Positions 17,999 through 60,250 of a stretch of DNA of 64,000 nt are shown here, one piece after another. A model generated the notes under the pieces. It saw only the letters and a program-made list of their open reading frames with translations, made no database searches and was not told the DNA's origin. Source of the stretch: Streptomyces sp. NBC_01439 (GTDB lineage: Bacteria; Actinomycetota; Actinomycetes; Streptomycetales; Streptomycetaceae). The stretch spans positions 7,067,501 to 7,131,500 of the forward strand of contig NZ_CP109487.1 in assembly GCF_036227605.1 (NCBI RefSeq), written 5' to 3'. Both the position numbers and the translations under genes were made by a program. How positions within the stretch are numbered: the first letter of the stretch is position 1; each line of letters opens with the position of its first letter.

Positions 17999-19255
17999 TC
18001 AGAGTGCCTGTGCGGCGGGCTTGACCATGCCGCGCACTGTGCGCGACTTCACAAAGTCGCCCATGGCGGTCATCTCCCACTCGCCGGAGAACTGCTTGAT
18101 CAGCTTGGCCATCATCACGCCGGTCTGGGGTTCGGCGCTCGTCAGGTCGAAGCGCACCAGCTCTTCGCCGCTCGCCGCGTCGATGAGACGGCAGTAGGCC
18201 TTGGCCACCTCGGTGAACTTCTGGCCGGAGAAGGAATTGACCGTGAACACCAGACCGGTGGCGTCGGCGGGGATCCGGCCGAGGTCCACGACGATCACCT
18301 CGTCGTCGCCCGCGCCCTCACCGGTGAGGTTGTCACCGGAGTGCTTGACGGCACCGCCGAGGATGGACAGCTTGCCGAAGTAGCAGCTGTCGATGTGGTT
18401 GCGCTGGGGGCCGTACACGATGACGGAGGCGTCGAGGTCGATGTCCTTGCCGCGGAAGGCCGGCTCCCAGCCCAGCCCCATCTTGACCTGGGAGAGCAGC
18501 GGGCGGCCGCCCTTGACGAGGGAAACGGTCTGGTTCTTCTGGAGGCTGACCCGCCCTTTGTCGAGGTTGATCTTCCCGGAGCCGGGCGCGGCCGCCGCGG
18601 GTGCGGGAGGGGCCACGGGGGCGGCCGGGGCGGGAGCCGCGGGCGTGGTGGCGCCGCCGAGCCAGGGGGAGGCCGGGTAGGAGACCGGCGGGGCCGGGGG
18701 CGCGGGGGGCGCGGGCGGCGCGGGCGGGGTCACGGCCTGGGGCGCCGCGGGCTCCTCGTCCACGGAGACCCCGAAGTCGGTGGCGATGCCCGCGAGGCCG
18801 TTGGCGTACCCCTGGCCGACCGCGCGCACCTTCCACACGCCGCCGCGCTGGTAGACCTCGACCACGACGAGCGCGGTTTCGGTGCCCAGCCGCGGCGGGG
18901 TGAAGGAGGCAATCACCGCGCCGCCGTCGGCGTTGCGCACGGTGCCGGTGGGTTCGATGCCCTGGAAGGACTGCCCGGCGGCGTCGGGGCTGGCGGTGAC
19001 CACGATCCGCTCGATGCCCGGGGGCAGCGCGGCCGTGTCCACGGTGATCGAGTCCGGTGCCGCACCCCCGCCGGACCGGTAGCTGACACCGGGACCGGAG
19101 GGCTGGTTGAAGAAGATGAAGTCGGCGTCGGAGCGCACCTTGCCGTCCGCCGTCAGGAGCAGGGCCGATACGTCGAGCCGTACCGGCGCAGCCACGTCGA
19201 CCGTCACGCGGACGGCGTTGAGCGGCAGGTTGGATCCAGGGGTCATAGCGGTCAT
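17999..19255 (-). CDS. Tandem TerD-domain protein
   Basis: 418 aa with two TerD domains. The first (about residues 1-165) ends TALVVVEVYQRGGVWKVRAVGQGYANGLAGIATDFGV, the classic TerD C-terminal pattern. A Pro/Ala-rich linker with APPAPPAPPAPP follows (about 168-225). The second (about 230-418) contains DIDLDASVIVYG, KHSGDNLTGEGAGDDEVIVVDLGRIP and FDLTSAEPQTGVMMAKLIKQFSGEWEMTAMGDF, including the acidic Ca-binding loops. TerD proteins belong to a Ca-linked stress and tellurite resistance system. It stands alone here. The two ATGs at 19255 and 19246 are equally plausible starts. Confidence 0.92.
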   Translation of the reverse strand: MTAMTPGSNLPLNAVRVTVDVAAPVRLDVSALLLTADGKVRSDADFIFFNQPSGPGVSYRSGGGAAPDSITVDTAALPPGIERIVVTASPDAAGQSFQGIEPTGTVRNADGGAVIASFTPPRLGTETALVVVEVYQRGGVWKVRAVGQGYANGLAGIATDFGVSVDEEPAAPQAVTPPAPPAPPAPPAPPVSYPASPWLGGATTPAAPAPAAPVAPPAPAAAAPGSGKINLDKGRVSLQKNQTVSLVKGGRPLLSQVKMGLGWEPAFRGKDIDLDASVIVYGPQRNHIDSCYFGKLSILGGAVKHSGDNLTGEGAGDDEVIVVDLGRIPADATGLVFTVNSFSGQKFTEVAKAYCRLIDAASGEELVRFDLTSAEPQTGVMMAKLIKQFSGEWEMTAMGDFVKSRTVRGMVKPAAQAL

Positions 19256-56476: not shown

Positions 56477-57448
56477 TCAGGACTCGGCCGGGGCCACGTC
56501 CCGCAGCAGCTGGGTGAAGGCCGCCTCGTCGACGACCGGCGTGCCGAAGCCCTTCGCCTTGACCGTCTTGGAGGTCGCCGAATCGGGGTCGTTGGTCACC
56601 AGCAGGCTGGTGAGCCGCGACACGCTCGTCGCGATGTGCAGGCCCGCCTCGACCGCACGGTCCTCCAGCAGCTCCCGCTCCACCGAGGTGTCACCGGAGA
56701 AGGCGATCCGCATGCCCTGCTTCAGCGGCTTGCCGTCCTCGAAGCGCCCCGGATTGGGGTGCGGACACGGCGGCCGCTTGCGCGAGGGCCGCCAGCTGCC
56801 GCCCCGGTACGAGGCCTGGTACCCGATCCTCGGGGTGACGGCGGAATCCGACCACTCCGTCAGCGGCCGGCATTCCAGCAGCGGCAGCCGCACGCCGCCC
56901 TGCGCGGCCGCGTGCAGCGAGGGGCGGAACGCCTCCGCGAGCACCCGGGCGTCGTCGAGCGCGTGGTGGGCGCGCTGCTGGACCACGCCGAAGTGCGCGG
57001 CGAGCGACTCCAGCTTGTGGTTGGGCAGCGGCAGGTCCAGTTCCTTCGACAGGGCGATGGTGCACAGCCGCTGACGGACCGGTGCGGTCACCGCGGCCCG
57101 CGCGTACTCCCGGGCGATCATCTGCCAGTCGAAGATGGCGTTGTGCGCGACCAGTACCCGGTCCGCGAGCCGGTCGGAGAACTCCTCGGCGATGTCCTCG
57201 AAGAGCGGGGCGTCGGCGAGCATCGCGCTCGTCAGCCCGTGGATCCACACCGGTCCCGGGTCCCGCCGCGGATTGACCAGCGTGTACCAGTGGTCCTCCA
57301 CGTTGCCCCGGGCGTCGAGCCGGTAGACGGCGGCGGAGACTATCCGGTCGTCGCGCGCGAGCCCGGTGGTCTCCACGTCGACGACCGCGTACCCCTGTGG
57401 GTACGCGGTCGGCCACATCGTGTCTGCGGTCGTACGGTCGTCGAGCAT
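56477..57448 (-). CDS. DEDDh 3'-5' exonuclease with C-terminal BRCT domain
   Basis: 323 aa. The DnaQ-like exonuclease domain has ExoI YAVVDVETTGLARDD (D, E), ExoII VLVAHNAIFDWQMI (D) and ExoIII QRAHHALDDARVLAEAF (H, D), all five DEDDh residues. A linker with a CPHPNPGRF basic patch leads to a BRCT domain (about residues 240-323, GMRIAFSGDTSVERELLEDRAVEAGLHIATSVSRLTSLLVTNDPDSATSKTVKAKGFGTPVVDEAAFTQLL). This pairing suggests DNA repair or proofreading recruited to protein or DNA ends. ATG at 57448 is preferred to a GTG at 57454; no strong ribosome site for either. Confidence 0.92.
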   Translation of the reverse strand: MLDDRTTADTMWPTAYPQGYAVVDVETTGLARDDRIVSAAVYRLDARGNVEDHWYTLVNPRRDPGPVWIHGLTSAMLADAPLFEDIAEEFSDRLADRVLVAHNAIFDWQMIAREYARAAVTAPVRQRLCTIALSKELDLPLPNHKLESLAAHFGVVQQRAHHALDDARVLAEAFRPSLHAAAQGGVRLPLLECRPLTEWSDSAVTPRIGYQASYRGGSWRPSRKRPPCPHPNPGRFEDGKPLKQGMRIAFSGDTSVERELLEDRAVEAGLHIATSVSRLTSLLVTNDPDSATSKTVKAKGFGTPVVDEAAFTQLLRDVAPAES

Positions 57449-57507
57449 GGTCACAGAGGATATCGGCCCCGACTGACACCCGTGGCCGCAGCGGCGCTTC
57501 CCGGCCG

Positions 57508-60096
57508 TCAGCCCAGGGCGGCGACCAGGTCGCCCGCCGCTAGCTGTTCGAGGCCGCAGCCGTCAACCGGCCCCGGCAGCAGCCGGTATGCGCAGCCGCT
57601 CGCGCCGGCGGGCGCGACCTCGCCGTCCACCAGCGCGAGGAACACCGACCGGCCCGAAGCCGTGGCGCCCGCGAGGGCGTCGACCTCCGTGGAGGCCAGC
57701 ACGTCGTCCGGATCGCGCAGGCCGACCACCCGGGCGGCGAAGGCCGCGGCGTCCTCGCCGGAGTCCCGGCGGTAGGTCCACAGTTCGTCGGGGTCGCTCG
57801 GCCGGGGCGTACGGCGCAGCACGGCCACCTCGCGGCAGCGCGCGGCCGCGTGCCAGCCGGCCAGCTCCCACAGGGTGGTGCGGCCGGTCGAGAAGTACTG
57901 GAACAGGTCGCGGCCGATCCGGGCCAGGTCCTCCTGGTGCGCCCACACGCTGTGGTAGCCCTCGTCGTCCGGCAGGTGGACGTCGGTCCACAGGAAGCCG
58001 CGCCGCTCCAGGTCGACGAGGAGCGGCACGTGGATCCGGGAGTTGCCGACCAGGTCGTAGCGCTGGCGCACGGTCCGCGGATCGTAGCGGGCGGTGCGGC
58101 CGGCCCAGCCGGGCAGGGCCATGAACCCGGCGAAGGCATCGGGCAACAGCTCGAAGGGGATGTTGTTGTAGCTGAAGACGACCGGCATGGCGAAGCGCAC
58201 ACCGGAGTCGGCCAGGGCGTCCAGGTCGATGTCCACGTACTCGCTCGCCCCGTGCGGCGCCGGCGCCGAGACGAGGTCGCCGGAGTGGACGACGGCCCGG
58301 GCGCCGTACACGAGGTTCGTGAAGTCGCACAGGCCCGCGTAGTTCCAGTCGGCGTCGAACAGCACCACCGACAGGTCCAGGTCCACGCGCTTGCGCGCCG
58401 GCTCCATCCAGTGCAGGAACATGCGCAGCACCTCGCCGTCCGGCAGTGCCTGGAAGCTGCCCTTGGGGACGGTGACCAGGGCTTTGGCCGCCGCCCGCTC
58501 GGCGGAGGGGACGTGGAGGTGGGCGAGGCGGGAGTCGAGGACCGCCACGTCGTACGGGTCGGCCGCGGCCAGCCGGCGCAGCACCTCGCCCTCGAACAGC
58601 TCGCACACCGAACGGGTCACCGCTTCGGTCAGCGGGGCCCGGTCGTCCGACACGGTGAAGGAGTGCGCGACCTGTCCGCGGGGGAAGAACACCCGCCGCG
58701 TTCCGGGGAGGTGGCGGATCCGCAGCCGGCCGAGCGCGGACAACATCGGCCCGGGCCCGACCTTCGGCAGCCGCCGTGCCAGTACCTCGGCGACCTGTGG
58801 CGGCAGCGTGTCGGCCGCGTACAGCCGCAGCAGGTGGTCCAGGCGGCGGACGAGCTCACCGGGCCGTTCGGCCAGTACGGCCAGGGCCCGGTCCGGATCC
58901 CCGCCGCGCAGGGCCTCCTCGGCGCGCCCCAGCCAGGTGGCCGCCCGGACCCGCGGGCCGTCGATCCGTACCGCGTGCGGGTACGCGGCCGCGGTGGCGA
59001 GCAGCGCGGCGCCGAGGGCGGTGCCGGTGGTGTCGGTGCCCCGGAGCACGGCGAAGGCGAGCGCGGCGCGCGGGTGGCGGGCGTACTGCTCGAACGGGTG
59101 CAGGATCTCGGCGGCCCGCTTCCACAGGTCCGCGTGGCGCAGGACGTCCTCGACGAGGAGCGCGGGATCGAGGCGGTCCAGGACGGCCAGCAGGTCGCGC
59201 CGCAGCGGGCGCGGCAGGGAGCGCAGGCGCGGGGGTTCCAGGAGGTCGGCCTCGCCGCCGGACCACACGGCGAGCAGCCGCAGCACGTCGGTGGCGGTGG
59301 TGAGCCGCTCGGGCAGCAGGGCCCGTACGGTCTCCCGCGTACGGCGTTCGCGCAGCAAGGTGCCCAGCACCAGGGCCTTGGTCTCCCGCACCGGTACGTC
59401 GTCCGGGAGCCAGTCGAGCCCGGCCGGCACGTGGGCGAGGAGCACCCGGGTCTCCTCCTTGTCCTGCGGGGAGAGCGGGGTGCGGCGGGCGAGCAGCTTC
59501 CCGAGGGCGGTGACGGAGTCGGCCGCGCGGTCGGTGCCGAAGGACAGCAGCCGCAGCGGGCCGCCTCCGGAAGGGACCTCCCCCGGGTGCGGGGACGGCC
59601 GGATGAAGGGATCGGCGGCGTCGAGACGGCGGTGGCAGATCGGGCAGCCGGTGTAGTCGGCGCCGTCCCAGCAGGTCCGACAGACCAGGTGGGCGCAGGG
59701 GGCGACGGGGTGGACGCCGCCGACGGTCCCGCACAACACGCACGGCTGGTCCGGCCACTGCAGGAGCAGGGTCAGGACGCGGTCGATCCACAACGCGTGG
59801 GTGTCGTCGGGCACCGAGGCCGGGAACGAGCGGAACAGCGGCATGTGGGTGCGGTCCGCTCCCAGCAGGATGTCGATGTCCCGGATCAACTGCGCGCCCG
59901 CGGCGGCGAGTCCGGTGGGTCCGAGCCAGGCGAGCGCCGAACGCAGCGGGACCGTCAGGGCGTAGCCCCGGTCGAGCAGTTCGGCCTCCAGGGCCGTCAG
60001 GCCCTCGGACGTCGACGGGTCGCCCGGGCGCGGCCCGGCCTGGTCGACGTAGACGGTGTGCAGACGGCGCAACAGGACGGTCGACAGTTCGGGCAA
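57508..60096 (-). CDS. RING-finger protein with TerD-like C-terminal region (MXAN_6230/SCO0854-like)
   Basis: 862 aa from a TTG at 60096, which has GGAGGA 9 bases upstream. Residues 119-154 are a complete C3HC4 RING: C119-x2-C122, C134, H136, C139-x2-C142, C151-x2-C154. Residues about 160-560 are mostly helical, Leu/Arg/Ala-rich. Residues about 571-705 resemble a TerD domain: VDLDLSVVLFD, VVHSGDLVSAP...SEYVDIDLDAL, VRFAMPVVFSYNN, RQRYDL and IHVPLLVDLERRGFLWTD. No membrane helix. I recall a family named MXAN_6230/SCO0854 RING proteins; function unknown. A ubiquitin-like pathway cannot be claimed because no E1/E2 or ubiquitin-like gene adjoins. Confidence 0.85.
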   Translation of the reverse strand: MPELSTVLLRRLHTVYVDQAGPRPGDPSTSEGLTALEAELLDRGYALTVPLRSALAWLGPTGLAAAGAQLIRDIDILLGADRTHMPLFRSFPASVPDDTHALWIDRVLTLLLQWPDQPCVLCGTVGGVHPVAPCAHLVCRTCWDGADYTGCPICHRRLDAADPFIRPSPHPGEVPSGGGPLRLLSFGTDRAADSVTALGKLLARRTPLSPQDKEETRVLLAHVPAGLDWLPDDVPVRETKALVLGTLLRERRTRETVRALLPERLTTATDVLRLLAVWSGGEADLLEPPRLRSLPRPLRRDLLAVLDRLDPALLVEDVLRHADLWKRAAEILHPFEQYARHPRAALAFAVLRGTDTTGTALGAALLATAAAYPHAVRIDGPRVRAATWLGRAEEALRGGDPDRALAVLAERPGELVRRLDHLLRLYAADTLPPQVAEVLARRLPKVGPGPMLSALGRLRIRHLPGTRRVFFPRGQVAHSFTVSDDRAPLTEAVTRSVCELFEGEVLRRLAAADPYDVAVLDSRLAHLHVPSAERAAAKALVTVPKGSFQALPDGEVLRMFLHWMEPARKRVDLDLSVVLFDADWNYAGLCDFTNLVYGARAVVHSGDLVSAPAPHGASEYVDIDLDALADSGVRFAMPVVFSYNNIPFELLPDAFAGFMALPGWAGRTARYDPRTVRQRYDLVGNSRIHVPLLVDLERRGFLWTDVHLPDDEGYHSVWAHQEDLARIGRDLFQYFSTGRTTLWELAGWHAAARCREVAVLRRTPRPSDPDELWTYRRDSGEDAAAFAARVVGLRDPDDVLASTEVDALAGATASGRSVFLALVDGEVAPAGASGCAYRLLPGPVDGCGLEQLAAGDLVAALG

Positions 60097-60250
60097 AAGG
60101 GGGAGTCCTCCGGAACCGGAAAGAAGAGGGTGGGCGGGGACGGAGAGGGGACGCGCTACGGGTCGTCGTAGGAAGGTGAGAAGGAAGCACGTCGCGGAGC
60201 CGCCCCCGCGCCGCAGATACAACCACGGGCCCGGGAGCGCGCCAAGCGAT

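Follow-up and report, generated by a model that had tools for sequence, protein, structure and literature searches.

What might a bacterial protein do that carries a RING finger and a TerD-like region in one chain? This question is raised by a minus-strand gene (57508..60096) within a stretch of 64,000 nucleotides from Streptomyces sp. NBC_01439 (contig NZ_CP109487.1)—hereafter the window—which encodes a member of the MXAN_6230/SCO0854 family. An initial annotation had recognized both parts and seen in them a RING-based component of a Ter stress system. The combination of the two parts is borne out by profile and fold comparison; the system role gains no support from the gene neighborhoods, as discussed below. 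The annotation missed a Ro60-like helical ring predicted to span most of the protein, the optional nature of the zinc domain in relatives, and a RING-less paralogue. With modest confidence, we lean toward a Ro60-like RNA quality-control protein.

Fold comparison of the model predicts a closed ring of helical repeats, similar to that of Ro60, for residues about 184–512. In the fold lists (VIA-align; a fold missing there is not thereby excluded), Ro60 comes next after TerD in two models, and the Ro60 alignments extend past the TerD domain on both sides, ending at residues 860–862 of the window protein. These aligned ranges suggest that TerD sits in the C-terminal region where Ro60 bears its von Willebrand factor A (vWA) domain and replaces most of the latter. 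The profile vWA_Ro60 (PF25045) finds no match at E ≤ 10 in the window protein, nor at E ≤ 1 in the relative P0320. The predicted fold of the ring and of the C-terminal part is, hence, what the window protein shares with Ro60/Rsr, from which the family differs by the absence of detectable profile similarity, by the inferred substitution of TerD for most of the vWA domain, and by an optional N-terminal zinc domain. The genome encodes a TROVE protein and RtcB elsewhere. Among the most conserved stretches of the ring is W-x-R-x-x-E-x-L-H. The H187S mutant of Ro60 lacks binding to mouse Y3 RNA (PMC11277228), and the helix end at H333 might be the counterpart of the Ro60 helix ending in His187—a guess that is suggestive only. 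Also inside the ring, residues 274–329 (window 59110–59277) give a weak Pfam match to DUF7673 (21.7 bits, cut-off 27).

The TerD likeness, which the initial annotation had seen by eye at about residues 571–705, stands for fold and motifs and fails for the Pfam profile. A TerD fold with significant profile support is found in the predicted structure, and the DLDLS, HSGD, and GA-E--D motifs are invariant or nearly so in the family alignments, whereas PF02342 itself does not match the window protein at E ≤ 10. TerD binds calcium through acidic residues such as the DLDLS aspartates. It is also proposed to bind nucleotide derivatives (PMC7159879). Fold and acidic motifs are thus common to the window protein and TerD (PF02342); the differences are that the window domain is unrecognized by this profile, that it is embedded in a protein whose family members measure roughly 690–910 aa, and that no ter genes adjoin it in the window. 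The genome yields 13 TerD matches, and the nearest other TerD gene in the window lies 38 kb off. A protein with two TerD-like halves is encoded at 17999–19255 of the window and holds two of the PF02342 matches that the genome scan gave.

In the zinc domain, all eight C3HC4 ligands are present in RING order and spacing (PF14447, E 3.5e-20), and we take them to pair as a cross-brace, with C119, C122, C139, and C142 forming site 1 and C134, H136, C151, and C154 forming site 2. The conservation that the initial annotation had named as a test of its RING is found among close homologues, as all eight ligands are kept in 38/38 aligned rows (37 of the 120 homologues listed, plus the window protein); PF14447 is missing from two short entries among these 120, P0106 and P0109. 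A wider census covers 312 aligned rows, which are redundant and whose full-RING rows belong to Streptomycetaceae as far as they are named. The full set of ligands is borne by 40 rows, site 2 only (C134, H/C136, C151, and C154) by 60, and no ligand by 210, whereas two near-identical rows align one cysteine; the domain is, hence, missing or halved in 272 rows. Site 1 alone, or a partial site 1, occurs in 0/312. This is the pattern that a cross-brace RING predicts, and the all-or-none distribution of ligands in the alignment fits binding of two zinc ions.

Half-RINGs with site 2 only are found in Variovorax, Deinococcus, Vibrio, Hymenobacter, Segatella, and Aureispira. In a quick tree of 86 rows, from which the RING columns were excluded, the full RING forms one clade (SH-aLRT 96, no bootstrap) with the Deinococcus half-RING adjoining, and the three states of the domain need five changes. 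The simplest reading would be a single gain of the second zinc site, in Streptomycetaceae, with several losses of the domain. This direction is not proven, since the tree is unrooted and does not represent Myxococcota (including MXAN_6230), whose addition may alter the single origin of the full RING.

The gene surroundings of relatives hint at RNA. Around the relatives on viral contigs (79 loci kept), 45 of 62 non-redundant loci bear tRNA genes within 9 kb, with 342 tRNAs in 974 kb. For thymidylate synthase in the same viral collection—a control not matched within genomes—these values are 1/40 loci and 2 tRNAs in 606 kb (p 1.6e-13). When only contigs of 100 kb or more are counted, tRNA-bearing loci number 27/36 for the family versus 0/13 for thymidylate synthase. 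Within 2.5 kb, tRNA genes occur at 34/62 loci of the family, at 23/72 non-redundant viral TROVE loci (L163–L242), and at 0/40 thyA loci. Viral TROVE genes thus share the tRNA habit of the viral relatives.

Four of the 11 phage records with relatives were inspected, and RtcB or RlaP lies nearby in three of them. In Weasels2, five tRNA genes precede the gene of the relative and RtcB follows 3.2 kb after; in RcXuper, tRNA genes flank the gene on both sides and RlaP follows after 0.5 kb; in XacN1, RlaP lies 1.4 kb before it. In LpeD, the neighborhood includes a gene for a PemK mRNA interferase, and repair genes are not annotated in the stretch examined. CCA/poly(A) polymerase-like genes are found near 5/64 viral loci, these four hand-fetched phages included.

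Among bacteria, the gene of a Variovorax relative and rtcR point away from each other across three small genes (L038:8655-9759, one DUF6283). On the relative's own strand, a sigma-54 site that fully matches the consensus lies at L038:9901-9917; assuming equal base frequencies, 22 kb would contain about 0.003 perfect sites. With two mismatches allowed, the pattern is not enriched in this locus (2 found versus 2.7 expected), so that the perfect match alone is unexpected. RtcR normally faces rtcBA operons, and the Salmonella operon includes the Ro60 orthologue rsr (PMC7790460). The Variovorax layout shares the divergent rtcR and the sigma-54 site with such rsr-yrlBA-rtcBA operons, but the 22 kb retrieved there carry no rtcBA annotation, and the RtcB of the window genome is located elsewhere. 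Streptomyces is not known to have sigma-54. As a general partner, RtcR was rejected: it occurs at 2/177 loci, both from Variovorax WDL1, which confines this link with Ro60/Rsr to one lineage; a weaker match covering 257 aa of the probe (L325) probably reflects the general sigma-54 activator part. The three small genes may themselves form an rtcR-linked module.

Genes for tRNAs lie near only 4/62 bacterial loci. RtcB lies within 9 kb at 3/62, one of which (L104) additionally has TROVE and RlaP. This Paenibacillus locus shows the order WYL regulator–TROVE–RlaP–RtcB at L104:13024-19389, 2–7 kb from the TerD/Ro60-like gene. WYL-domain regulators are also encoded near Bacteroidota relatives (L042:13782-14783 and L043:1954-2859), with a Mov34/MPN protein 5.7 kb off in L042. 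A search for conserved neighbors in Bacillota (80 loci, mostly Paenibacillus and relatives, being the best 80 of 494 genome-contig loci and including the Variovorax query locus) gave at most 9 occurrences of any gene cluster within two genes, and the family gene looks like an orphan gene there. In the window, the four flanking genes scanned encode a TetR regulator, an RNase_T exonuclease with BRCT, SURF1, and an acetoacetate decarboxylase-like protein. The exonuclease gene starts 53 bp past the stop of the window gene and neighbors it likewise in Streptomyces loci L036 and L037; another RNase_T gene lies downstream in the distant Segatella locus L043, the background frequency of such neighbors not being estimated.

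Homologues of the window protein number 775 at E ≤ 0.001 (best 120 listed). Above the family cut-off are 3/296 Actinomycetota genomes, all of the genus of the window and including its genome, and 6/296 have a match at E ≤ 1e-10; at E ≤ 1e-15, 4/398 Pseudomonadota and 2/399 genomes of the order of Variovorax match, the Variovorax seed included in both counts. Relatives also occur in 30 plasmid records from ten genera. The window genome itself encodes a RING-less paralogue of the same architecture (723 aa, G000:C1:9070132-9072054; L031:8061-10232). A copy of this paralogue in another genome of the genus (L035:7699-10003) looks frameshifted, its reading continuing in a second overlapping frame.

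Databases already record several of these elements, namely a PHROG of phage relatives, the TerD label given to RING-less relatives, and both the family name and its RING. The window protein is a full-length member of NF041916 (RING_SCO0854), matched across residues 5–858 with 1115.2 bits, and the name of that family gives the RING alone, neither TerD nor the Ro60-like ring; six scanned relatives with half a RING or none fall short of its cut-off. phrog_33734 matches residues 383–727 of the window protein (E 2.6e-38) and P0320 (E 2.6e-82), so that phage relatives are already clustered, and it is recorded without function, RING, or Ro60 likeness. No description of RING and TerD or of TROVE and TerD in one protein was seen among the literature matches listed or in the available parts of PMC7159879, PMC3710099, PMC11090510, PMC7824862, PMC11277228, PMC7790460, and PMC9650030, and the listed matches likewise gave none of the union of RING, TerD, and Ro60-like ring, of the zinc-site series, or of the tRNA-island habit; most subscription papers lie outside this scope.

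Table 1. Features of the MXAN_6230/SCO0854 family gene and its downstream neighbor in window coordinates (A1 and A2, family alignments).
Feature	Position	Strand	Basis
MXAN_6230/SCO0854 family protein, 862 aa	57508..60096	-	NF041916, 1115 bits, cut-off 600
GGAGGA, likely ribosome binding site ahead of TTG start	60097..60115	-	sequence
N-terminal helical domain, residues 1-112	59761..60096	-	AlphaFold2 model
RING finger C3HC4, residues 119-154	59635..59742	-	PF14447 E 3.5e-20, ligand census
Ro60/TROVE-like helical ring, residues about 184-512	58561..59547	-	predicted fold
Strongly conserved helix end W..R..E.LH, residues 325-333	59098..59124	-	(nearly) invariant in A1 and A2
TerD domain, residues 549-728	57913..58452	-	predicted fold
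Putative Ca site, D572 and D574 of DLDLS	58375..58383	-	invariant in A1 and A2
HSGD motif, residues 604-607	58276..58287	-	invariant in A1; in A2 S605, G606, D607 invariant, H604 nearly
GA-E--D motif, residues 616-622, putative Ca site	58231..58251	-	A2: G616, E619 invariant; A617, D622 nearly
C-terminal alpha/beta part, residues 729-862, with an extension missing from short relatives	57511..57912	-	model and alignment
RNase_T 3'-5' exonuclease with BRCT, downstream, possible partner	56477..57454	-	PF00929 E 1.1e-24, PF00533 E 5e-5

As a mechanism, the closed ring would, like that of Ro60/Rsr, hold RNA that is structured or damaged; tRNA or its fragments would be the most probable ligand. TerD in its vWA-like position might steady the ring or let a metal or nucleotide ligand, calcium or another, gate the access to it. 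The N-terminal zinc domain would be an add-on that recruits a partner, shaped as a one-zinc half-RING in several phyla, as a two-zinc RING in Streptomycetaceae, and lost elsewhere. For Streptomyces, the exonuclease gene directly downstream may encode this partner. More broadly, bacteria and large phages could harbor a large, unrecognized branch of Ro60-type proteins that have exchanged most of the vWA domain for TerD and that act on damaged or phage-borne tRNAs alongside RtcB, RlaP, and RtcR; in Streptomycetaceae, one event would have turned the one-zinc half-RING of this branch into a two-zinc RING. This wider picture is tentative, and we hold it to be somewhat short of probable.

Several observations weigh against an RNA role and speak for a stress sensor of the TerD family (for calcium or metal) with a helical scaffold, whose Ro60 likeness would be convergent and whose tRNA-rich phage neighborhoods would mark accessory-gene islands. 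Besides the RING, TerD is the only part of the window protein with significant profile support, and in databases, RING-less relatives go under the names TerD family or cytoplasmic protein. The family shows no profile similarity to TROVE (PF05731, hhalign): TROVE alignments of 8 and 88 rows, set against alignments of the family with 22, 110, and 301 rows, never scored above decoys, and, hence, only a likeness of fold is claimed. Some of these weak, nonsignificant alignments fall at positions that the structure predicts (a helix before the first vWA strand and a ring helix ending in His). Bacterial neighbors vary. The tRNA density around the viral genes is flat to 8 kb (0.36, 0.32, 0.35, and 0.31 per kb), so that tRNA-rich islands are claimed and adjacency is not; this slightly lowered our confidence in the Ro60-like reading and in its wider form and slightly raised that in the sensor. 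We still judge the sensor unlikely, if the strongest departure from RNA quality control: the Ro60 alignments overrun the TerD domain on both sides, genes with RNA roles (RtcB, RlaP, CCA/poly(A) polymerase, and RtcR) are met repeatedly nearby, and viral TROVE loci show the same tRNA habit. A narrower form of the Ro60-like reading, in which the phage protein chiefly protects tRNAs of the phage or its host from anticodon-nuclease defense and the bacterial one serves in defense or repair, is a little less doubtful than the sensor; it draws on the tRNA islands, the phage records, and RtcB or RlaP beside the genes inspected, but does not gain from the bacterial loci, at most of which the probes used met no repair gene within 9 kb.

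Both roles that start from the RING fare worse. A Ter system (tellurite, phage, and colicin) would accommodate RING and TerD in one chain, the many TerD matches of the genome, and a TerB-family gene (L040:13382-13801) at a distance of 1.8 kb from the half-RING relative in Deinococcus; no other ter gene was met next to the relatives whose loci were retrieved, although no systematic search was made. However, it is improbable because there is no ter gene among the four flanking genes scanned; a TerD probe found no match near the family gene at 177 loci (TerB, TerC, and TelA were not searched systematically), PADLOC gave no match for three family members, and most aligned rows lack a complete RING. 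Least probable is an E3 ligase acting with an E2 and a ubiquitin-like modifier. The complete C3HC4 RING would suit it, and all eight ligands are common to Prok-RING_4 (PF14447) and to Cbl E3 ligases, which provide the nearest PDB RINGs (best E 0.0014). In active RING E3s, the linchpin position after the last cysteine is usually Arg or Lys; here, it is His in 38/38 full-RING rows, and many relatives keep site 2 only, by which the family differs from both groups. This residue, together with the lack of a UQ_con or Prok-E2_B match in the genome (two E2 families only, with a silent UQ_con control), makes such a role very unlikely.

The Ro60-like reading would change how TerD is seen. TerD proteins are common; if the reading is true, TerD gains a molecular setting, and its role at the molecular level becomes directly testable by RNA pull-down. 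Likewise, Ro60 biology would gain a new architecture, and large phages a tRNA-associated factor. The zinc-site series of none, one, and two within one family offers a natural series for the rise or decay of a RING. The window protein may help in dealing with damaged RNA and not in tellurite resistance.
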